Shown: piece after piece, positions 2,122-17,144 of the stretch | Numbering within the stretch: position 1 is the first letter of the stretch | Layout of the letters: each line of letters starts with the position of its first letter | Assembly: GCF_028369055.1 (NCBI RefSeq) | Contig: NZ_JAQNCZ010000002.1 | Coordinates: 124,001 to 188,000, forward strand | From: Cognatishimia sp. SS12 | GTDB taxonomy: Bacteria > Pseudomonadota > Alphaproteobacteria > Rhodobacterales > Rhodobacteraceae | Length of the DNA stretch: 64,000 bases | Reading direction: 5' to 3' | Notes under the pieces: model-generated | Seen by the model: the letters and a program-made list of their open reading frames with translations, nothing else | Databases searched by the model: none | Told to the model about the DNA's origin: nothing | Program-made: the position numbers and the translations under genes

Positions 2122-3186
2122 ATGTCGGGTGTAGAACTCACGAACGTCATCAAGAAATACGGCGAAACCCAGGTCATTCACGGGGTCGATCTGAAAATCG
2201 ACAACGGGGAATTTTGTGTATTTGTTGGCCCATCGGGCTGCGGCAAGTCCACGTTGTTGCGTATGGTGGCCGGTCTTGAAGAAACCACTGGCGGGACCAT
2301 CGAAATTGGCAGCCGCGACGTGACCCACGCTGATCCGTCCGAACGCGGTGTGGCGATGGTGTTCCAGACCTATGCGCTTTATCCGCATATGACCGTCGAA
2401 GAGAACATGGGGTTCGGTCTGAAAATGAACGGCGTGCCCAAGGCGGAAATCGAAAAGAAGGTCGCCGAGGCGTCGCAGATTCTGCAGCTTGACCAATATT
2501 TGAAGCGCAAACCCAAAGCGCTCTCGGGCGGTCAGCGTCAGCGTGTGGCCATCGGCCGTGCCATTGTGCGTGGCCCAGAGGTGTTCCTGTTTGACGAACC
2601 CCTCTCCAACCTTGACGCCGAACTGCGTGTGGACATGCGTGTTGAAATCGCGCGCCTGCACAGCGAAATCGGCGCAACCATGATCTACGTCACCCACGAC
2701 CAGGTCGAAGCGATGACCCTCGCAGACAAGATCGTGGTGCTGCGCGCCGGTCATATTGAACAGGTTGGCGCACCCATGGATCTGTTCCGTGATCCTGACA
2801 ACAAATTCGTCGCTGGCTTCATCGGTTCACCGTCGATGAACTTCCTCACTGGCGTGGTTCAGGGTGGCAGCGTGCGCGTCCCGGCGCTGAATGACGAAGT
2901 GATCGAAACCACGGTAACTTTGCCAGCAGACGGCACCGAAGTTCTCGTCGGCATGCGCCCGCAACATCTGGGCGTGACCTCTGATGCGGCCTCTAGCGTC
3001 AAGGTCGAACTGGCCGAGCAACTCGGCGGCGTGTCCTATGAATACCTGCGCGCAGCAACCGGCGAGCGGATCATCGTAGAATCCAAAGATGACGATGTGC
3101 TGCCCAAAGGCGATACCGTGAAGGTCGCTTTCGATCCGAGCCGCGTCATGTTCTTTGACGCCAAAACCGAAGCGCGCCTGCGCTGA
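2122..3186 (+). CDS. Carbohydrate ABC transporter ATP-binding protein (UgpC/MsmK/MalK type)
   Basis: A 354-residue ATPase that energises a sugar importer at the inner face of the cytoplasmic membrane. Walker A GPSGCGKST is at 36-44, the Q-loop glutamine at 82, signature LSGGQ at 134-138, Walker B VFLFDEP at 154-160 and the switch histidine at 192. The C-terminal third carries the TOBE/OB regulatory domain of the MalK group (KVELAEQLGG, VGMRPQHLG). It follows iclR by 16 bases, and its likely partner is the binding protein transcribed the other way at 1190. No permease gene is in the window. A terminator follows at 3208. Confidence 0.93.
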   Translation: MSGVELTNVIKKYGETQVIHGVDLKIDNGEFCVFVGPSGCGKSTLLRMVAGLEETTGGTIEIGSRDVTHADPSERGVAMVFQTYALYPHMTVEENMGFGLKMNGVPKAEIEKKVAEASQILQLDQYLKRKPKALSGGQRQRVAIGRAIVRGPEVFLFDEPLSNLDAELRVDMRVEIARLHSEIGATMIYVTHDQVEAMTLADKIVVLRAGHIEQVGAPMDLFRDPDNKFVAGFIGSPSMNFLTGVVQGGSVRVPALNDEVIETTVTLPADGTEVLVGMRPQHLGVTSDAASSVKVELAEQLGGVSYEYLRAATGERIIVESKDDDVLPKGDTVKVAFDPSRVMFFDAKTEARLR

Positions 3187-3207
3187 GGCATCGGCTGATC
3201 AATGCAA

Positions 3208-3239
3208 AACGCCCGCTGCAAGGTCAGCGGGCGTTTTTT
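3208..3239 (+). terminator. Rho-independent terminator after the ABC ATPase gene
   Basis: An 11-base perfect stem (AACGCCCGCTG with CAGCGGGCGTT) and six-base loop is followed directly by a run of T. It ends the iclR-ATPase transcript. Confidence 0.88.
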
Positions 3240-3259
3240 GTGCGTAAATTTCAGCGCGC

Positions 3260-4477
3260 TTAGGCCACATCCTCGACAGGCTGGCTGCGCCATTTTGGCA
3301 GACGAATAAGCGCTGTGGTGCTGTCCTCAGATGTATGCACTTCAAACTCACCCCCGTGCAGATCCACCAGCTTGCGCGTGAGCGGCAGACCAAGGCCCAG
3401 CCCGCCGCCGGTGCCGCGGTGATCCATATTCCCGCCGACAACAAAGGGTTCATACAGCTGCGCCAGCTCCACATGGTCATGTAGGTGGCCGTTGTCCGTC
3501 ACACTCAATTCCAGATAGCCACCTTCCGAAATCTGCGCGCCCAGCTTGATCTCTGTGCCGCCGTGCAACAGCGAATTTAACAGCAATGCAGACAGGCAGG
3601 TTTTCATGTGGCTTTCGTCCAGCGTGACCGGAACCTCTGGCAAATCCGTATCGCAGCGCAGGGTCTTGCTGCTTTCGGTTGCTGCGCTGGCGTGAATGTC
3701 CTGCAGCTCGCCCAACAGCTCTTTCAGTGACACCGGCGCGTCGTTCAATTGCAATTCACCCGTGGTCGTGTTGCTAAAGCTCAGAACAGCCTCCACCAAA
3801 CGCATCAGATGCTCTGCAGAGCGCAGGGCCCCGCGTGCCATCTTGGTGTTTGCCTCATCCCGTGTGCGCAGCTCCAGGAGTTGCAATCCACCTTTGATCA
3901 CCGTCAACGGCGTGCGCAGCTCATGACCGACCAGGGTCATAAAGGTCGACTTTGCTGCCGAATCCGCAGGCGCAGCCGGGGCCGCCGGTTCCCGCTCAAG
4001 CGCGGCCACCACGGCTTTGCCGAGATCATGCAGCACGGCCATCTGTGTTTCGCTCGGCGGCTCATGGGGTTTCACATCAAGCACACACAAGCTGCCAAAC
4101 CGAAACCCGGAAGACAGAACCAGCGGCACGCCCGCATAGAACCGCGCTTGGGGACCGCCTGCTGCCACCATCGGGTGCTCTGCGAATTTGGCGTCTTTGC
4201 TGAGGTCCGGGATCACCATCGCCTCACCGGACATGATGGTGTGGGTGCAGAATGAATTGTTTTTGGGCATCTCGCCAAGTTCAATGCCGACCACGGATTT
4301 GTACCACTGCGTGGCATCCTCGATCACGCTGATATGCGCAATCGGGCAATCAAACAGTTTGCGCGCGGCGTCACAGAGGCTGTCAAACAGCACATCATTG
4401 TCACGCGACAGGCCTTTGACGGCCGAAACGGCGCGCACGCGCGCCTCTTCATTAAATGGGATGGGGTATGTTCTCAT
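3260..4477 (-). CDS. Soluble GAF-domain sensor histidine kinase
   Basis: A 405-residue histidine kinase with no signal peptide or membrane segment, so it is probably cytosolic. An N-terminal GAF domain (about 28-160) carries blocks typical of GAF kinases, such as ISVIEDATQWYKS and FYAGVPLVLSSG. The phospho-acceptor histidine is His185 in GHELRTPL. The ATPase domain shows the N-box asparagine (N301), DNG at 328-330 and the glycine-rich GGGLGLGL at 357-364. No response regulator is adjacent, so its partner is not known. GAF domains bind small ligands or chromophores; nothing here identifies the ligand. Confidence 0.9.
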   Translation of the reverse strand: MRTYPIPFNEEARVRAVSAVKGLSRDNDVLFDSLCDAARKLFDCPIAHISVIEDATQWYKSVVGIELGEMPKNNSFCTHTIMSGEAMVIPDLSKDAKFAEHPMVAAGGPQARFYAGVPLVLSSGFRFGSLCVLDVKPHEPPSETQMAVLHDLGKAVVAALEREPAAPAAPADSAAKSTFMTLVGHELRTPLTVIKGGLQLLELRTRDEANTKMARGALRSAEHLMRLVEAVLSFSNTTTGELQLNDAPVSLKELLGELQDIHASAATESSKTLRCDTDLPEVPVTLDESHMKTCLSALLLNSLLHGGTEIKLGAQISEGGYLELSVTDNGHLHDHVELAQLYEPFVVGGNMDHRGTGGGLGLGLPLTRKLVDLHGGEFEVHTSEDSTTALIRLPKWRSQPVEDVA

Positions 4478-4605
4478 GTCTCAAAATCCAAAATCTGTTC
4501 GCCTTGCCCCAACAAGACAGGGTGATTCGGTTCATTTGGCGTTTAAATTGGTTCCAAATTGAGACACGGACGACCCACCCTGCCGGGTGAGCCATGAATT
4601 TTCTC

Positions 4606-5169
4606 TTAGATCGCGAATGCCTGGGCCAGATTTTCTGGCAGCTCAAACTCTTTCAACACCCGCGCCCGCGCCTCAGCCGACATCTTTCGCGCGGTTTTTT
4701 CCACGATACGCTGGACTTTGTCTTCCGGGTGTTTTGCGGCGAAGGGTGCAAAATACCATGTGAGAAACGCAAAGCAGATGACATCTTCCAGCGCCTGCAC
4801 GTTCTCATGTCGCTTGATGCCCTCTTTGCGCAGCATCTTTTCGGTTTCTTCGATGGCCTCGGCGTCATAACCGGCCGCTGCCATAAAACCACCAACCCGC
4901 TTGGCATGATGCGCCGCCAAATCCTTGCGCCAGGTCAAATAGCCCGCGCGCCCATCGGGATAATCGGCACGGGCCAGAACCCAGCGCTCGACGTGCTGGC
5001 CGCGCGCTGCGATCTGCAGTTCTTCACTGGCGTTCGGAAAGAGACGGGCCAGTTGCTGACTCATGCGTTGTCCGTAAAGCAGGGCCTCTGGTTGCCCTTC
5101 GTCTAGTCGCGGATCTTTTTCATTTGCCGCATCAATCGCGTTCAGAACCTGTGTCAGCCGGTCGCTCAT
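4606..5169 (-). CDS. DUF4202 domain protein
   Basis: A 187-residue cytosolic protein that fits the DUF4202 family, with a His-rich central region (ARGQHVERW, DLAAHHAKRVGG) and helical C-terminal half. The family has no established function that I can name. The histidine pattern resembles metal-dependent HD-like folds, which is only a guess. The ATG at 5169 is preferred over an upstream TTG because AAGGAA lies at a suitable distance before it. It sits upstream of the histidine kinase on the same strand, separated by 128 bases, so co-transcription is possible. Confidence 0.75.
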   Translation of the reverse strand: MSDRLTQVLNAIDAANEKDPRLDEGQPEALLYGQRMSQQLARLFPNASEELQIAARGQHVERWVLARADYPDGRAGYLTWRKDLAAHHAKRVGGFMAAAGYDAEAIEETEKMLRKEGIKRHENVQALEDVICFAFLTWYFAPFAAKHPEDKVQRIVEKTARKMSAEARARVLKEFELPENLAQAFAI

Positions 5170-9162: not shown

Positions 9163-10590
9163 TTAGGGCTGCCAGTTTTCAAATCCAAACGCCATATAGT
9201 CGCGCTGGTAGACATCTCGCGCCAGCGCCTCAATGTCTGCGTCATAGATCTCGGCCAGCGGGATCGGTCCAATCGGCTCAGCCGCCCCAAGCGCGGGCGC
9301 ATCCGAGCGGCCAACTTTCGCGGCAAGATAGGCCAGATCACGCGCCAAATCATCTTCGCGCAGCACCATATCCGGCACCGCCAGCACACCAAATCCAGAC
9401 AGGATGCTGGCCTGCGTCGACCAATAGCCATCTTGGCGAATCGCGGTCTGCCCGGCGAGATTCGCCTTGGTGAATTCCAGGTAGGATTTAAAGGCAGCCC
9501 GATGGGCGGCGGCATCATATCCGGCGTCTGGCATCTCTTCGGGGATGGGCAGTTTGAAGCGATTGCGCAGGGTGCGCCGGATCTTGGGAAAACCGCGATC
9601 ATGCGGCAGGATCATCTGGCAAAAAGACGCATGCGCCCGCGCCACCGGATGGCGCAGCACGCTGAACACCCGATGCGGTACATTGCGGCGTTTCCATTGG
9701 CGCACCGCCTTCTGGTTCAGCTCAGTCAGCAGCGCGTCAACGGGCACCCCATCCAGCGCCGCCATCCAGGCTTTGACCTGTTCAGTCGGTCCCCCTTGAA
9801 TTGGCAGGAACATCAGCCCGGACTCCGGGGTTGCCACATAAGAGGGCACCGCAGGCCCACGGCGTGGTTCGAAATTCGGCGTTCTGTTCAGGTTGAACAG
9901 ATCATACTGGGCCAGGGCCGCGGGGATGTCGTCAAAATTCTCGACCTTGTCAGCAAGCGGGCTGGGATTTTGGCGCTTGAGCTTGTTGTCCAGCATCTCC
10001 AACTGCGCCTCAATCCCCAGAAAGCGGGCCAGGCCGTTCATCACCGATACATCCTGCAGATCTTCGTAGGCGACATAAAACGCCGTCTGGCCACTGCGTT
10101 GCAGCGCGTTCAGCAGATAGACCTGAAACCCCTGCATGCGGGCGGTGAATTCAATGAATTCGTCGCCCTCAAACGTCACCTTGCTGTCGCGCCGCTTGCG
10201 CACATCGGTCAGCTTCCACTGCCCGGTGGCTTGGGCAATTTTCCAGCTGACGTAGCTGTCCATCGGATTGCGGGTCAGAATGATCTTGGCGCAGCGCGGA
10301 TCCTGTACGCAGCCATCCAAGATGCGCGGATCATGATCATGAAAGAACCGAAACCCACTGAGCGTGCCGGGCGTGGCCTTGATGGCATCCAACACAAGTT
10401 CTGGTGTTGCGTCACGCTGGGCCTGGGAAACGCCCAGCAGGTCCTGTTTGTTGGGGTAGCCAATGAAATGCGGGTTAAAGGCCTCGCCCAGACAGGCCAG
10501 CCCCGGGAAAGCATTGATGTTCGCTTCCAGAAAATTGGAGCCCGTGCGCATTTCTGCAAAAACAACGAAATAGTCGAACTGTTGGGTCAT
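9163..10590 (-). CDS. Sulfotransferase with two modules
   Basis: A 475-residue protein with sulfotransferase features. The N-terminal module resembles NodH/Stf0 sulfotransferases: a 5'-phosphosulfate loop at residues 15-19 (RTGSN) and a 3'-phosphate motif in IILTRNPMDSYVS. The second half (about 290-475) repeats the pattern of the Sulfotransfer_2 family, with VFSVLRHPVARAHASF and a C-terminal IYDADIEALARDVY, but the expected 5' loop is replaced by FLPIQGGPTEQ, so it may be inactive. It would transfer sulfate from PAPS to a sugar. The start at 10590 lies four bases after the upstream glycosyltransferase stop, in the same operon. Acceptor unknown. Confidence 0.8.
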   Translation of the reverse strand: MTQQFDYFVVFAEMRTGSNFLEANINAFPGLACLGEAFNPHFIGYPNKQDLLGVSQAQRDATPELVLDAIKATPGTLSGFRFFHDHDPRILDGCVQDPRCAKIILTRNPMDSYVSWKIAQATGQWKLTDVRKRRDSKVTFEGDEFIEFTARMQGFQVYLLNALQRSGQTAFYVAYEDLQDVSVMNGLARFLGIEAQLEMLDNKLKRQNPSPLADKVENFDDIPAALAQYDLFNLNRTPNFEPRRGPAVPSYVATPESGLMFLPIQGGPTEQVKAWMAALDGVPVDALLTELNQKAVRQWKRRNVPHRVFSVLRHPVARAHASFCQMILPHDRGFPKIRRTLRNRFKLPIPEEMPDAGYDAAAHRAAFKSYLEFTKANLAGQTAIRQDGYWSTQASILSGFGVLAVPDMVLREDDLARDLAYLAAKVGRSDAPALGAAEPIGPIPLAEIYDADIEALARDVYQRDYMAFGFENWQP

Positions 10591-10594
10591 GAAG

Positions 10595-12292
10595 TCACTG
10601 CACCAAATAGGGGCGACGCGGCAGGTTGCTGGAATCTGGGTCATCCGGCGTCACAGAAAAATCACCCATCAGATAAGGATGCATGCCCTGATTTTTCAGG
10701 TTCTGCAGAAACTTCCCAAATCCTGTAAGATCAGTCATGCGCGGGGCCTCGGTCAGGCGATGCGGAGAGCGGATGCGAATTTCGTCAACCACGCTTTGCA
10801 AAGGCTCCATCGGGGCCTCAATAAATTCGGCCATGGTCCAGATGCGCACCCTCGCCTTGGCCCAGGGTGACCGCAGAACATCAAGAAATTCAGATTCGAT
10901 TTTCTGCAGTTTTGCCGCTTCCTTGCGGATATCTGCAAAGTTGAGATTGGATTTGAACAAAGGCACGGCCCAAGCCCCGGAAATGACCGAGATTTGCGCA
11001 TTGGAATCCTTGGCCATCAGCCAATTGTTGCCTTGCTTGTCACCGGGGCCATATTGGAAACACTGCCGTTCCCCACGGGTGTTCCAGATCAGATTGGTCA
11101 AAAACGCGCGCGGGTTGTTATCGCGCAATGCCGCGTTGTCGGTCAGCGCGCCGTTCAGGATATGCTGCCCGGAGGCAAATTCTGCCCGCTTGGGTGCAAA
11201 CAGATGCCCGTGCACCTGACAGCCCGTGGCGCGCGCCAGCCAGGGTTCGAAATCTTCAAACAGTTCCGCAAAGCCCTGAAACACCGAATAGGGGGCTGAG
11301 GTCACGCCGTTTTCCCAGCTGTGGTGCAAGAAGCGTGACTGCATGTATAGACCGGGCCGGCCAATCGTGCGCCGCTCTACCGCTTTGGCAAAAAGCCGGT
11401 CGATTTTTGTCGGGTTGGGTTCGGCTGTGCGGCGCTCGGCGGTCTCGGGTTTGAGGAACGCGCTATAAAGCCGGTCGGCCCCCGGCCAGATTTTGCGCGC
11501 AACAAAACAATCGGATCGACGCAGAAGCTGTAGATGATCGTCGTAAAAGATGTGTGGTTTGCCCTGATAATCAAACTTGGACAGGGTCAGTGAGCGGCTT
11601 TCGATATCCGTGGAATAAAGCCGCGCCAGAGACTGAAAATAGCTTTCGTCCGGGATCCACACTTTCTGAAAATAGGCATCATAAGCCGGACGCTCCGGGT
11701 CCTGCAAAATGGCCGATAACGTCTGTCGCGTCAGGCACCACCATTGCGACCCCATATGCGGCACCAGACCATTGGGTATGCGGCGTTTCATCCCGATGCG
11801 GCGCTGAAATTTCACGTAACGATCAAACAAGAAGCGGTGCTTTTTCCATGAAAAGGGAAAGCGCAAGGTAAACCGCTCTGCGTCCAATCCGCCAACCGTC
11901 CAAGGCACATCCGCCGTGGTGGCTGATTCAATGAAATCAGTGCGCGGGCGGGCATCAAGGTAGTCTTTCAGCTCCGCCACCGGGCGCAGCGGCAAGCAGG
12001 AGCCAGAGGACAGATAGACATGGCGCACGTCAGGAAAGCGCTCCAGCATCAACTCGCTTGCCGATTGTGCCGCGGCGACAAGCCCCCACATGCCCCATTC
12101 GCATTTATGGCGCGCGCTGAATGTGATCAGCGGGTCTTGTGCCAAAGCCTCGCGAAAACTGCGATAGGTCTTGCGCGGCACCGATGCATCCACATGGATC
12201 ACAACCGGGCAACCTGATGCCGTCCAATGGCGCGCCACCTCTGTCGCGCGGTGCAGCGCCTCATGGACCAGCATGATCACCCCCAGCGTCAC
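10595..12292 (-). CDS. GT14-like (core-2/I-branching type) glycosyltransferase with C-terminal extension
   Basis: A 565-residue protein. The first 300 or so residues match the core-2/I-branching beta-1,6-N-acetylglucosaminyltransferase fold (GT14), with VIHVDAS, VYLSSGSCLPLRP, PHMGSQWWCLTR and the acidic WIPDESYFQSL motif. The rest is a family-specific C-terminal domain (DUF5928-like as I recall) with no assigned role. No signal peptide or membrane helix is visible. It overlaps the GT2 gene upstream by four bases (ATGA) and is followed by the sulfotransferase gene. It probably adds a branching sugar to a surface glycan; donor and acceptor are unknown. Confidence 0.8.
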   Translation of the reverse strand: MTLGVIMLVHEALHRATEVARHWTASGCPVVIHVDASVPRKTYRSFREALAQDPLITFSARHKCEWGMWGLVAAAQSASELMLERFPDVRHVYLSSGSCLPLRPVAELKDYLDARPRTDFIESATTADVPWTVGGLDAERFTLRFPFSWKKHRFLFDRYVKFQRRIGMKRRIPNGLVPHMGSQWWCLTRQTLSAILQDPERPAYDAYFQKVWIPDESYFQSLARLYSTDIESRSLTLSKFDYQGKPHIFYDDHLQLLRRSDCFVARKIWPGADRLYSAFLKPETAERRTAEPNPTKIDRLFAKAVERRTIGRPGLYMQSRFLHHSWENGVTSAPYSVFQGFAELFEDFEPWLARATGCQVHGHLFAPKRAEFASGQHILNGALTDNAALRDNNPRAFLTNLIWNTRGERQCFQYGPGDKQGNNWLMAKDSNAQISVISGAWAVPLFKSNLNFADIRKEAAKLQKIESEFLDVLRSPWAKARVRIWTMAEFIEAPMEPLQSVVDEIRIRSPHRLTEAPRMTDLTGFGKFLQNLKNQGMHPYLMGDFSVTPDDPDSSNLPRRPYLVQ

Positions 12293-13299
12293 GCCCAGTT
12301 TCCTTTCGACATGAGCCCCAAAATCTCAAGCTGGCGCCAATTGATATAGCGCTCGGACCATTTGCACCAAAGGTCAGGGTTGCGCTGCAGCGTCGCGGCA
12401 TAGGCCTCATATTCGACACTATCGCCATAGTGCTGCTTGCGGGCCAACTCTTCCTGCGCTTTCACCGGGAAGGTATTGAGAAACTTGGTATGCAAGAGCA
12501 TTCCGCTGGCTTTCTCTCCGCCCCATTCTTCGTAAACGCGGTTCAGCCCGCGCGGCAACAGCGCATGGGTTGAGCTGACATAGGCATAGTGGCGGTCCCA
12601 TTTCACCAGTGGAATTTTGTTCAGCGCTGGCGCCTGATAGGGCTTGTCGACAAAAAAAGCACGCGCGCGCGGGCCGCCCTGAATCCAGAGGTTGCCATAC
12701 TCATAGTTCTTTTTGATGGAGTAATTGCCCGCGTCAAACCAACTGGCGATGTCCATCGGGTTTTGACCCGCCGCATAGGGAAATTCGTCGATCCGCCCCT
12801 TGGGGTACATATCCAGCAGCATCGCAGAAAAACTGCGCAGCGATCCGCTATCCAGCCAATCGGTCAGTGCCTTGATCGGACGGCTGTCACAAAAGGGGTA
12901 GATGAAAAACTCATCCGGATCGACCACCAGCGTCCAATGCCCATGGGCGTATTTGCGTTTCAGCGCGTTCATCCAATCCACGCCAAAATTTGCCGCCTTG
13001 TAACTGCCCTTGGTATACCAGACCGACACATCCGGCATACCGCGCAACAGGTCCATCAACCCATCTGTGCTGTCATTGTCCACGACCAGGAAATGATCAA
13101 TGCCCATGTCGCGGTAGTATTGCAGGAAATAGGGAAAGCGGATGGCTTCGTTGCGGGCCGTTGTCACAAGCAGTGTGTGACCGGGTTTGATATGCCCCGT
13201 GTGATCCTGTTTGCACCGCAGTTGGCGTGACTTTCGCACCGCCCGGATGATCCGGCGTTTGCGGCGAATCCGCATGCGATACGAGTCCCAAAGCCCCAC
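12289..13299 (-). CDS. Glycosyltransferase family 2 protein (copy A)
   Basis: A 336-residue GT-A fold glycosyltransferase (Glyco_tranf_2_4 type). Key parts are TTARNEAIRFPYFLQYY, FLVVDNDSTDG and the metal-binding acidic motif VVDPDEFF, followed by MLLDMYPKG and GNLWIQGGPRARAFF. The N-terminus is strongly basic (RMRIRRKRRIIR), fitting membrane-surface association. It is related along its length to copy B at 13440, suggesting a tandem duplication that has diverged. It begins the GT2-GT14-sulfotransferase operon, with a separate promoter likely in 13300-13417. The sugar transferred is unknown. Confidence 0.85.
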   Translation of the reverse strand: MGLWDSYRMRIRRKRRIIRAVRKSRQLRCKQDHTGHIKPGHTLLVTTARNEAIRFPYFLQYYRDMGIDHFLVVDNDSTDGLMDLLRGMPDVSVWYTKGSYKAANFGVDWMNALKRKYAHGHWTLVVDPDEFFIYPFCDSRPIKALTDWLDSGSLRSFSAMLLDMYPKGRIDEFPYAAGQNPMDIASWFDAGNYSIKKNYEYGNLWIQGGPRARAFFVDKPYQAPALNKIPLVKWDRHYAYVSSTHALLPRGLNRVYEEWGGEKASGMLLHTKFLNTFPVKAQEELARKQHYGDSVEYEAYAATLQRNPDLWCKWSERYINWRQLEILGLMSKGNWA

Positions 13300-13417
13300 C
13301 GTTGCACACCACTTCTTAATTGCTATTCCGTGACGCCCTGCCTGTGCGCCCGCGTTTCAATGTTATGTCACAGTCATAATCTTGAAAGCAATGGATTTAG
13401 AAAGCGTTAGCCCCGGT

Positions 13418-13435
13418 TGTCGCCAATCGGCGACA
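13418..13435 (-). terminator. Hairpin after GT2 copy B (weak terminator or processing site)
   Basis: TGTCGCC and GGCGACA form a perfect seven-base stem with a four-base loop just beyond the stop of the GT2 copy B gene. There is no T run on the minus strand, so termination here would be Rho-dependent or incomplete. Confidence 0.35.
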
Positions 13436-13439
13436 GCCC

Positions 13440-14486
13440 TTAACCCAGTTGAAAGGGCAAAAGCGCTTCGGTCCACATTGGCGGGGACATTAACCCAAAT
13501 TGGACCAGTTGTTCTGGCCCCTCATAGGCGACGGATCCAGTATGCCAAAGATCCGGGGCCGTCATGATCTGATCATAATAGCCGTCAAAATCCTCGGGCC
13601 GGTTGAAATGCTGTTTGCGCTGCTTTTCTGTTTCCGATTTGGCAGCAATCTCAGGCAGGAATTTTGTGTGCAGCAACACACCAGACGGCCCTGCGCTGCC
13701 AGGGCCCGCATATTGATAGTTCAGCTTCGGCGGCAGAATGGAATGGCAGGAATTCACATAGGCAAATTTGCGGTGCCATTTGACCAGCGGCAATTTGTTC
13801 AACGTGGGTGAGCGATGCGGATCCTCGGCAAAAAACACCCGTTCCCGCACGCCGCCCTGCACCCATAAATTGCCGAGCGGCCACTGGCGCTGCGCGCGAT
13901 AGGGGCCGACATCAAACCATTGCAGAATGTCCCGCGGATCATCGCCGGGCGTATAACTTTGGCCGTTCACGGGACCTTTAGGATAAAGATCCAGCATCAT
14001 CGCGCCAAAGGCACGCCGGCCCTGCGAATCCAGCCACTGCGTCAATCCTTTCAAGGGCACCTGATCCTGCGCCGCATAGACCAGCACCTCATCCGCATCC
14101 ACCATGAGGCACCAGCGATTGTGGGCATGTTTGAATTGCAGCCATGTCAGCCAATCCAGCCCAAAACGCGCAGCATGATACCCCGCATCGGTTTGCCAAA
14201 GGGATACATCTGGTTGCGCCCGCAAATACGCCAGGCTGCCATCGTCGCTGCCATTGTCCACGATCAAAAACTGCGCCACGCCCAGCGCACGATAATGCGC
14301 CAGAAAAAACGGCAGCCGGGTCATTTCGTTGCGCATGACCGACACCGCAATAATGTCATCAGCCGCAAGATCGCCGGTCTGGTCCTTGACCGGCGTCAGC
14401 GCATGGCGCGCGCGAAACGCGCGCCACAACAGCCGCCGCCGTTTCAAGCGCATCCGGTAAGCATCAATTAACGATCTTTTCTGCAT
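13440..14486 (-). CDS. Glycosyltransferase family 2 protein (copy B)
   Basis: A 348-residue relative of copy A with the same order of motifs: SVMRNEMTRLPFFLAHYRALG, FLIVDNGSDDG, the acidic MVDADEVL, MMLDLYPKGP and GNLWVQGGVRERVFF, then KLPLVKWHRKFAYVNSCHS. The basic N-terminus (RMRLKRRRLLWRAFRAR) is also shared. The start lies two bases from the start of the divergent fusion gene at 14488, so the true start of one or both may be further in. It probably adds a different sugar in the same glycan as copy A. Donor and acceptor cannot be told. Confidence 0.83.
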   Translation of the reverse strand: MQKRSLIDAYRMRLKRRRLLWRAFRARHALTPVKDQTGDLAADDIIAVSVMRNEMTRLPFFLAHYRALGVAQFLIVDNGSDDGSLAYLRAQPDVSLWQTDAGYHAARFGLDWLTWLQFKHAHNRWCLMVDADEVLVYAAQDQVPLKGLTQWLDSQGRRAFGAMMLDLYPKGPVNGQSYTPGDDPRDILQWFDVGPYRAQRQWPLGNLWVQGGVRERVFFAEDPHRSPTLNKLPLVKWHRKFAYVNSCHSILPPKLNYQYAGPGSAGPSGVLLHTKFLPEIAAKSETEKQRKQHFNRPEDFDGYYDQIMTAPDLWHTGSVAYEGPEQLVQFGLMSPPMWTEALLPFQLG

Positions 14487-14487
14487 A

Positions 14488-16350
14488 GTGCGTCACAGGC
14501 GGGGCAAGTCCCCTTCAGCTTTGCACGACTATGGGGGCGCGGATCAATTGCTAAATCTTTCAAGCACCGCAACTGCGTCAACGCGCCCTCCTTTCCAGGC
14601 CCTGCACAAACGGCTGTTTGACGTCAGCCTTGTGCTCATTCTGGCCCCGCTCGCGCTGCCATTGCTGGGGCTACTGGCGCTCCTGGCGGTGCTGACCCAT
14701 GGGCGTCCGGTTTTTTTCGTGTCAGAGCGCATGGCTTCGCCCACGCACGGCTTTCAGATGATCAAGCTGCGCAGCATGCCCGGTGAGCAGAACGATGGCA
14801 AAGCCACCGGCGGTCACAAAATGCCATCATTGGGTTGGTACGGGCGCTTTCTGCGGCGCACCCACCTGGATGAATTGCCGCAGCTTTTAAATATCCTGAA
14901 GGGCGATATGTCCTTTGTCGGCCCGCGCGCGCCGCTTCGGCGATATGTGGAGGCGCGCCCGGATCTGTATGGCGCTGTGCTACAAGCACGCCCGGGCCTC
15001 ACCGGGCTGGCGACCGTGGTCTACCGCAAGACCGAGGGGCGCCTGCTGGCGCGCAGCCGATCGGCCGAAGAAAATGATCAGGTCTACTTGCGCCGTTGCG
15101 TGCCGCGCAAGGCACAGCTTGATCGGATTTACGTTGCCCATCAGAGCCTTGCGACAGATCTTAGAATTATTGCGGCCACCGTTTTCCCGCACATTCGCCC
15201 AATCGCCAAATGCGCCCAGCGCCGCGGCCCCGCGCCGCGCGCGGACCATGCCCATTTGCTGGCCCGCGCCCCGATGGGCAGCCAGTTGGGCCTTTATGCG
15301 GCAGAATTTGCCGGGGGCAGCATTCTGATCACCGGCGCAGGCGGATCAATCGGGTCAGAAATCTGCCGCAAGCTCGCCCGCTGCCATCCACGCGAGTTGA
15401 TCCTGCTTGAGCAGAGCGAATTGGCGCTCCACCAGATTTGCCAAGAGCTGACGGAAATTTGGCCCCAGATGACGGTGATGCCAATCCTTGGTTCTGTCAC
15501 CGATTCCGCGCTGCTGGAGGAGCTGTTTGAGAGCCGCAATGTTGATGTGGTCCTGCATGCCGCGGCTTACAAACATGTGCCCCTGCTTGAAGATAACCTG
15601 CGCCCAGCGCTGCACAACAATGTGCGCGGCACAGTGCGGCTGGCCAAGGCGGCGCGCAAGGCGCGGGTGGCGCGGTTTGTGCTGATCTCGTCAGACAAGG
15701 CTGTCCGCCCCAAATCCCGGATGGGGGCCAGCAAACGCCTTTCTGAAATTGTGCTGCAAGATATGGCCACCCGCAGCGGAGCCACCTGCTTTTCCATCGT
15801 GCGGTTTGGCAATGTGCTGGGCAGTTCCGGCTCTGTGGTGCCCCGATTTGAGGCGCAGATCGCGGCGGGCGGGCCCGTCACCGTCACCGACCCGCACATA
15901 TCCCGTTACCTGATGACCGTGTCCGAAGCGGTGGACCTTGTGCTGACCACAACAAAAACGGCGCAAAATGGCGATATCAACGTTTTGACGATGGGGCCGC
16001 CGGTGCGGATTGCCACGTTGGCAGAACGTATGATCCGCAGCGCAGGCAAAACGCCACAAGCGCGAGGGCGCCGCCGTGACGGCATTGCGATCACCTATGT
16101 AGGTTTGCGCCCTGGCGAAAAACTTTCAGAAGAACTGTCACTATCAGGGGCCTTGCACCCCACACCCCATCCACGCATTCACCGCGCACCTGACCCGTGC
16201 CCGACCGAAATCGAGGTCGCCACACTGCTAAGACAGCTGGATCAGGCACTAAAAAACCGCTGCGACGCAGAGGCCGCAGCGGTTATTGACCAATGGGCGA
16301 CGGGTCCAGTGAACACCACCGCCGAACATCGACATGAAAGAAAAGCTTAA
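14488..16350 (+). CDS. Fusion of initiating sugar-phosphate transferase and nucleotide-sugar 4,6-dehydratase
   Basis: A 620-residue protein joining two enzymes normally made separately. Residues about 38-230 are a PglC/WcaJ-like undecaprenyl-phosphate sugar-1-phosphate transferase: KRLFDV, a hydrophobic membrane segment at 46-70, and HLDELPQLLNILKGDMSFVG. Residues about 275-560 are a CapD/FlaA1/PglF-like NDP-sugar dehydratase: GAGGSIGSE at 283-291, HAAAYKHVP at 357-365, SSDKA at 401-405 and MGASKR. The second domain could make the sugar that the first attaches to the lipid carrier. The GTG at 14488 is uncertain because it abuts the divergent gene; TTG codons at 14524 or 14548 are alternatives. 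It ends overlapping cysQ by four bases. Confidence 0.85.
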   Translation: MRHRRGKSPSALHDYGGADQLLNLSSTATASTRPPFQALHKRLFDVSLVLILAPLALPLLGLLALLAVLTHGRPVFFVSERMASPTHGFQMIKLRSMPGEQNDGKATGGHKMPSLGWYGRFLRRTHLDELPQLLNILKGDMSFVGPRAPLRRYVEARPDLYGAVLQARPGLTGLATVVYRKTEGRLLARSRSAEENDQVYLRRCVPRKAQLDRIYVAHQSLATDLRIIAATVFPHIRPIAKCAQRRGPAPRADHAHLLARAPMGSQLGLYAAEFAGGSILITGAGGSIGSEICRKLARCHPRELILLEQSELALHQICQELTEIWPQMTVMPILGSVTDSALLEELFESRNVDVVLHAAAYKHVPLLEDNLRPALHNNVRGTVRLAKAARKARVARFVLISSDKAVRPKSRMGASKRLSEIVLQDMATRSGATCFSIVRFGNVLGSSGSVVPRFEAQIAAGGPVTVTDPHISRYLMTVSEAVDLVLTTTKTAQNGDINVLTMGPPVRIATLAERMIRSAGKTPQARGRRRDGIAITYVGLRPGEKLSEELSLSGALHPTPHPRIHRAPDPCPTEIEVATLLRQLDQALKNRCDAEAAAVIDQWATGPVNTTAEHRHERKA

Positions 16351-17144
16351 GCCTCTTTCAGCTCTACACTTGGGGCATAGGCAATGAAAAACGGATTGGC
16401 GAAATCCTCCTTGCCGTAGACCAGCGGCGTGTGGTCATCAAAGCGCACCACATCACCGCCCGCGCCCAGCAGGACGGCATGACCGGCGGCTGTATCCCAC
16501 TCCATGGTGCGGCCAACACGCGGATAAAGATCCGCCTCGCCGGTCGCGACCAAACAGAACTTCAGCGAACTGCCAGCGCTTTTGCTGTCTTTGATGGCGT
16601 ATTTATTGATGTAATCATCGGTCGCCTGATCACGGTGGGATTTTGATGCCACCACCATCAGCGCCGTATTGTCCGCCTCAGCGACGTTGATCGGGCTGAC
16701 AGCCCCCAGCGTTTCTGGATCAAAACTGCCGGTCTCTTCGACTGCTTGTCCATCGGCCTGGGTAAAAAACATGCGTTCGCGCGCCGGGGCATAGACCACC
16801 CCGCGCTGCGGCACGCCGTTTTCCACATAGGCGATATTCACCGTGAAATCGCCGCGGCGGTGAATGAACTCCTTGGTGCCATCCAGCGGATCAACAATCA
16901 GGAAGGTATCGCCCTTGGCCTTGTGGCTATCGGCCTGCTCTTCGGTCACAAGCATCACATCCGGAAATGCCGCGCGCAGACCGGCGGCAATGATGGCATC
17001 TGCGGCCTCATCTGCTGCGGTCACAGGGCTGTCGTCTGACTTCACCTTCACCTCAAAATCATCGGAGTTGTAGATCTCCATGATTTTGTTGCCCGCTTCG
17101 ATAGACAGGCGACGCATCAGCGGGACAAGTGTTTCATAATTCAC
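16347..17144 (-). CDS. cysQ: 3'(2'),5'-bisphosphate nucleotidase CysQ
   Basis: A 265-residue member of the inositol monophosphatase superfamily that removes the 3'-phosphate of PAP (and PAPS), the by-product of sulfotransferases. The metal-binding motifs are VTEEQAD (residues 66-72), DPLDGTKEF (85-93) and WDTAAGHAVLLGAGG near 215, in the CysQ form. The four-base 3' overlap with the fusion gene and its position inside the glycan block with a sulfotransferase make a role in recycling PAP from glycan sulfation plausible, besides general sulfur metabolism. Confidence 0.92.
   Translation of the reverse strand: MNYETLVPLMRRLSIEAGNKIMEIYNSDDFEVKVKSDDSPVTAADEAADAIIAAGLRAAFPDVMLVTEEQADSHKAKGDTFLIVDPLDGTKEFIHRRGDFTVNIAYVENGVPQRGVVYAPARERMFFTQADGQAVEETGSFDPETLGAVSPINVAEADNTALMVVASKSHRDQATDDYINKYAIKDSKSAGSSLKFCLVATGEADLYPRVGRTMEWDTAAGHAVLLGAGGDVVRFDDHTPLVYGKEDFANPFFIAYAPSVELKEA

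Follow-up and report, generated by a model that had tools for sequence, protein, structure and literature searches.

We identified in the genome of Cognatishimia sp. SS12 a single open frame in which a small sugar-phosphate transferase is joined to a PglF-type dehydratase, and we consider it probable that this is a genuine gene fusion that formed in place, its product most likely being a membrane-anchored two-step enzyme. The joined enzymes ordinarily produce, and then load, the first sugar of a surface glycan. The frame lies on the forward strand at 14488-16350 of the window (the whole stretch of DNA that was analyzed, 64,000 nucleotides), and open reading frame analysis of the window showed 620 codons without an internal stop. 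Pfam recovered both domains far beyond chance, Bac_transf at an E value of 5.8e-44 (residues 41-233) and Polysacc_synt_2 at an E value of 1.6e-101 (residues 279-567); the transferase half scored 150.2 bits against PF02397 (curated cut-off 27) and the dehydratase half 339.8 bits against Polysacc_synt_2 (cut-off 20.2). The claim of the sequence-only reading that two domains of these identities share one frame was thus borne out, and the motifs were located at residues 126-140 (HLDELPQLLNILKGD), 283-291 (GAGGSIGSE) and 401-405 (SSDKA) of the fused protein. The monotopic phosphoglycosyl transferase (monoPGT) domain occupies 14608-15186 (PF02397, residues 41-233) and is followed by a linker (approximately residues 234-264; 15187-15279), placed by alignment with congeners and by a pLDDT below 50 at residues 240-264, and by the PglF-type 4,6-dehydratase domain (PF02719, residues 279-567; 15322-16188), assigned from Pfam, alignment with PglF and Foldseek. 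An LLAR segment (residues 257-260; 15256-15267) aligns with the LLAR near the start of the crystallized PglF construct and with ILGR or LLGR in the congeners, and Pfam gave no PF13727 match in the fused protein. None of the best 25 of 35 NCBIfam matches reached its own curated cut-off, including EPS_sugtrans (157.1 vs 295.55), WcaJ (114.5 vs 410.75) and PseB (148.1 vs 407.75). The exact start of the frame is uncertain, since the GTG at 14488 is only 2 bases away from where a divergent frame starts (14486), in-frame TTG alternatives occur at residues 12 (14521) and 21 (14548), and residues 1-31 are disordered in the predicted model. Third-position GC of the fused gene was within the range of its neighbors, and its total and second-position GC were slightly higher than theirs.

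The AlphaFold2 model of the fused protein (38 sequences) had a mean pLDDT of 83.6 and a pTM of 0.61, so that the relative placing of the two domains is not to be read from it. Most of both domains were modeled at a pLDDT of ~85-97 and the start of the dehydratase at ~72-82, with values below 50 at residues 1-31, in the linker and at residues 608-620. The top Foldseek match of the model was PglF (5bjw, TM 0.88 by target); there was no transferase among the best 50 Foldseek rows, and the identity of that half rests on sequence, its closest solved structure by sequence being PglC (8g1n, E 3.6e-18). The Asp-Glu pair D128-E129 (14869-14874, forward strand), which we take to be the catalytic pair of monoPGTs, aligned to those of PglC and WbaP and was kept in 25/25 relatives. 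P58, a candidate for the proline that breaks the re-entrant membrane helix of monoPGTs, aligned with a PglC proline; the same column in 25 relatives held proline in 6, another residue in 11 and a gap in 8, and a second proline, P54, lies nearby. The fused protein kept 43 of the 46 near-invariant transferase columns. Three odd residues, L to M91, G to K105 and R to S114 (S114 at 14827-14829, forward strand), fall at columns uniform in 25/25 relatives, and these columns are not known to define the PF02397 family. Ser114 is possibly a weak point of the transferase, and activity of this half is not assured, since the Arg of the 25 relatives at this column is also that of PglC and WbaP.

By sequence, the closest solved structure to the dehydratase half was likewise PglF 5bjw (E 3.4e-64). 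In the PglF alignment, S402-D403-K404 (15691-15699, forward strand) was the equivalent of Thr395-Asp396-Lys397, and M412-x3-K416 (15721-15735, forward strand) was the variant with Met, not Tyr, that marks PglF and WbpM; the Ser at the Thr395 position is common to the fused protein and the unfused congeners. Of 84 near-invariant dehydratase columns 78 were kept, and none of the six changes fell at SDK or Mx3K. Near-invariant columns were those with a uniformity of 95% or more across the other rows (77 dehydratase and 16 transferase rows, both including the window and L058), counted without the distant paralogs L034, L132 and L032 and without rows below 43% (dehydratase) or 44% (transferase) identity; loci duplicating another locus and short matches were left out of these counts and of the trees and identity comparison. 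Compared with PglF of the congeners, ~255 N-terminal residues are absent and, as judged from these alignments, the half is a PglF-type catalytic domain and not a full-length PglF. The accessible part of one source gives TDK...Mx3K in place of Yx3K as the signature of PglF and WbpM, and states that the C-terminal half of WbpM is active as a dehydratase without its membrane region (PMC8987622).

The origin of the fusion was read from the same locus in the congeners. In G007 and G002 the syntenic spot holds two separate genes, a small transferase and then a PglF of 626 or 656 residues made up of CoA_binding_3 (PF13727) and Polysacc_synt_2. A divergent glycosyltransferase gene (PF13704; 13440-14486, reverse strand) forms the left boundary of the module, as it does in G007 and G002, and the convergent cysQ (TIGR01331; 16347-17144, reverse strand), whose stop codon overlaps that of the fused frame, forms the right one. 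The unfused pair occupied the locus in 2 of the 8 other genomes of the genus compared; G003, G004, G005 and G008 have a GT2 homolog within 1.5 kb beside cysQ with neither half seen there, G001 and G006 have the cysQ flank without either half (G006 with a single short GT2 match), and G004 encodes a full-length PglF on another contig. The transferase of the fused protein extends as far as the final residues of its congener counterparts, the dehydratase part starts just ahead of the LLAR/LLGR segment, and the intergenic space is also gone. The two parts meet in frame and at a domain border, between where the transferase ends and where the catalytic domain starts with LLAR. The fusion was apparently the result of a deletion in which the second enzyme lost its own membrane anchor. 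Two ordinary genes joined by a frameshift, which the sequence-only reading had named as the case against it, or by loss of a stop were rejected as an explanation for the window: the congener alignment shows no trace of the ~255-residue module that would separate the halves, and the joint falls between domains.

It is very improbable that two ordinary genes were collapsed during assembly or binning and that the deletion does not exist in the organism. The fusion is known from one genome only, which is 91% complete, and this counts against our reading; the dehydratase tree alone, moreover, does not place the window firmly. However, the fused gene sits in the middle of a 507-kb contig, its joint respects frame and domain border, the only traces of the missing PglF module elsewhere in the genome were the N-terminus of a paralog with 32% identity and one chance-level match, and a named isolate genome (Aestuariivita) has the same truncation beside a transferase. 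Import of a ready-made fused gene from an unsampled lineage is also unlikely, if less so. Identity to the congeners' genes was ~52-54% for the fused gene and 85% for the flanking cysQ, as import would predict, but the flanks are the same as in the congeners and the neighboring GT2 gene is divergent too (57-63%). In addition, the transferase half grouped with G018, G007 and G002 at a support of 98/94, though its nearest row was G018, and a clade of the window dehydratase with G007 and G002 was not rejected (p 0.797). Both trees were built without L034 and L132 and without rows at or below 46.5% (dehydratase) or 42% (transferase) identity, the same sets serving for the topology tests, the identity comparison and the 25-relative counts; a first dehydratase tree had kept the distant paralogs L034, L132 and L032. 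Formation in place remains the reading we prefer.

A survey of domain order, proposed with the initial observation, was carried out by searching with the fused protein in 60 relatives and in overlapping sets of 9 genomes of the genus, 394 of the family, 385 of the class, 2 from the genus to which G309 belongs and 13 from that of G396; the family and class searches scored at most three candidates per genome, and weaker cases may be missed. Among the matches listed, a single alignment spanned both halves in two genomes only, the window's own and G309, and the short fusion was found only in the former. Some matches reached back to residue 146; of these, the two inspected (G237 and G004) were PglF with its own N-terminal module. 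A query with the fused protein for related loci among genome contigs found no relative. A DNA pattern linking the transferase and dehydratase motifs at ~400-460 bases, which undercounts as it requires particular codons, was found in one contig among 84,980 species (one genome each), that of Aestuariivita boseongensis BS-B2, whose pair is identical letter for letter to that of G309. In this pair the transferase is closed by a TAA; beyond that one stop codon, and still in frame, comes a dehydratase that is equally truncated. In the genus mate G781 the dehydratase frame has 631 residues and the transferase is separate. A junction query of 72,556 plasmids returned 2 records with at least 80% coverage and 30-35% identity, one of them annotated as a dehydratase.

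A selection of the rows listed, namely fifteen long-frame dehydratase rows, one short-frame row and one long transferase row, was inspected, and one full-length fusion was among them: in G396 (L114, 1502-4378) transferase, CoA_binding_3 module and dehydratase lie in one frame. The other matches listed for that genus had the halves in separate frames; of all its 13 genomes, 12 carried both halves on one contig and G783 carried them on different contigs. The G783 dehydratase match (C11, 160058-160924) lies in a short 355-residue frame and may represent one more case of truncation or an effect of the contig. Two further gene arrangements were seen: a 741-residue frame joining a family 2 glycosyltransferase and Bac_transf, another two-step fusion (L128 in G025, 2633-4855), and a PglF apparently split, with N-terminal module and dehydratase in different frames (L129 in G303, 2407-4292).

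The transferase data rejected a shared origin of the window fusion and the truncated pair of Aestuariivita (p-AU 0.0027, for a grouping that had been suggested by the dehydratase tree), so the N-terminal truncation most likely occurred twice, independently. Dehydratase trees joined the two (support 84), both on long branches, and we treated this join as unreliable. Mean identity to 24 other pairs was 50% and 52% for the fused halves, the lowest of 26, followed by the Aestuariivita pair with 53% and 54%. The fast divergence and the three odd transferase residues may reflect relaxed or altered constraint on the fused halves.

From these data we propose the following course of events. Two neighboring genes, a small monoPGT and then a full-length PglF, would have been fused in place by a change in which the first gene's stop, the spacer between the genes and the N-terminal membrane/CoA_binding_3 module of PglF were all lost. 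The fused protein is presumably made and would be anchored by the re-entrant helix of the transferase; the dehydratase would convert a UDP-HexNAc, most likely UDP-GlcNAc, to the UDP-4-keto-6-deoxy sugar beside the transferase, which would begin a surface glycan by transferring a sugar phosphate to undecaprenyl phosphate, the sugar in question being either the keto-sugar itself or a later product. The earlier suggestion that the dehydratase is placed at the membrane fits this arrangement, since the congeners' N-terminal module is absent and the dehydratase is attached to the transferase instead.

The neighborhood bears on what is transferred. Of 29 transferase-dehydratase loci examined, all chosen for holding the pair, 27 were usable once a duplicate and a locus cut by a contig end had been excluded, and in 22 of these a reductase-like SDR gene lay directly upstream; it was absent in G007, G002, G018, G094 and G071, and at the window locus. 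Queried with one such SDR, the window's genome gave no match at E 0.001, and the eight congeners gave weak matches (E 9.6e-4 to 4.8e-10); none of 28 neighbor loci had an SDR-transferase fusion. Channelling of the keto-sugar from dehydratase to transferase is plausible, and it gains some plausibility from the absence here of the SDR of 22/27 other pairs and of any SDR match in the genome. The SDR is also missing beside the unfused pairs of G007 and G002, so that its absence need not stem from the fusion. The stricter form of this proposal, that UDP-4-keto-6-deoxy-HexNAc is handed directly to the transferase with no reductase or aminotransferase between and is used or reduced only once on the lipid, seems to us doubtful. 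If it were true, the loss of the module beside a transferase, twice independently, would mean that the module serves to keep the dehydratase beside its transferase.

There is an even chance that the two activities are only co-located, a separate aminotransferase or reductase modifying the released UDP-4-keto sugar before transfer, and this is not exclusive with a membrane-anchored two-step enzyme. In the part of the literature at hand, an aminotransferase and an acetyltransferase (PglE/PglD, EpsN/EpsM) act between dehydratase and transferase (PMC10653937). Two strong DegT-type matches were found in the window's genome, but both are on contig C1 and not on that of the fusion, and the reductase-like neighbor of most other pairs is missing. 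YjbH, a partner of such clusters, was present in 2 of 9 genomes of the genus, exactly those with the unfused pair (G007 and G002), and gave no match in the window's genome (91% complete), which could be an assembly gap or a real pathway change. YjbH of these two congeners (L181 and L182) lies on other contigs than the unfused pair, and in G007 it adjoins YjbF.

These absences also bear on whether the gene is a relic or altered enzyme, its export partners lost with the fusion and one or both halves off their old job, which we regard as improbable. Both halves diverge fast, Ser114 and two more transferase residues and six dehydratase residues have changed at columns otherwise uniform or nearly so, and neither YjbH nor the SDR has a match in the genome. 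Against this, the 620 codons are still open after deep divergence, the Asp-Glu pair, SDK...Mx3K and the great majority of conserved columns (78/84 and 43/46) are kept, and the unfused G007 and G002 are also without the neighboring SDR.

Two further features of the genome were observed. A capsule-type cluster (L183, G000:C12:10000-29729; 12203-15789) holds a PF00953 polytopic transferase beside a full-length PglF-type paralog, a second transferase-dehydratase neighborhood built from another transferase fold. Within the window (9163-17144), a sulfotransferase-like gene (PF00685, below the cut-off) and cysQ flank the glycosyltransferases, an arrangement kept in G007 and G002. The CysQ enzyme clears a by-product of sulfotransferases, and the glycan of the window locus may be sulfated.

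A PNAS article of 2021 is reportedly the main survey of monoPGTs. The fused protein has a second functional domain C-terminal to a monoPGT core, and bifunctional monoPGTs (Bi-PGTs), with such a domain fused N- or C-terminally, are a named class in the accessible part of PMC10942596; fusion partners include sugar-modifying and regulatory domains, as far as the available text of another source goes (PMC12802240). In its general form, then, the arrangement proved to be described already, as the sequence-only reading had allowed, whereas literature searching brought up no account of this pairing of transferase and PglF. Our literature search, which covered few subscription papers, found no published example of a Bi-PGT with a PglF-type partner lacking the N-terminal module, and the literature around WreQ/WreU/WreV and Rhizobium etli quinovosamine/bactoprenyl yielded nothing on direct keto-sugar transfer. 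What appears to be new in this rare variant is the PglF-type partner without its own module, within a described class of transferase fusions to sugar-modifying domains.

Among individual systems, the pPGA2_71 cluster of Phaeobacter inhibens has an adjacent transferase and dehydratase of the same families; it differs in having separate genes, a full-length dehydratase, and SDR, YjbH and YjbF beside them (order SDR, sugar transferase, dehydratase, YjbH, YjbF, in an exopolysaccharide setting). PglC of Campylobacter, a small monoPGT (PDB 8g1n, 8e37), has the same minimal transferase domain with the Asp-Glu pair aligned, but it is a separate protein, whereas the fused protein bears a C-terminal dehydratase and has Ser114 for a PglC Arg. 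C. jejuni PglF and P. aeruginosa WbpM (PDB 5bju-5bjy) have the SDK...Mx3K signature in common with the fused protein, PglF being the best match by both sequence and fold; in contrast to both, the fused protein lacks the N-terminal membrane/CoA_binding_3 module, has the transferase in its place, and carries Ser for Thr395. In large monoPGTs such as WbaP, an N-terminal helical bundle and a PF13727 domain resemble those of PglF, according to the part of PMC10942596 that was available; the fused protein has neither, and the transferase itself precedes the dehydratase. The same part of that source, from 2024, calls the conservation of the PglF-like N-terminal membrane module puzzling. In the window, the module appears to have been removed naturally, with the pathway's own transferase in its place, while two congeners keep two genes at the locus, and the fusion and the congener pairs thus form a matched set for asking whether the PglF module serves mainly for anchoring and docking, and whether a reactive keto-sugar is handed directly from one enzyme to the next in the first membrane steps of glycan assembly.
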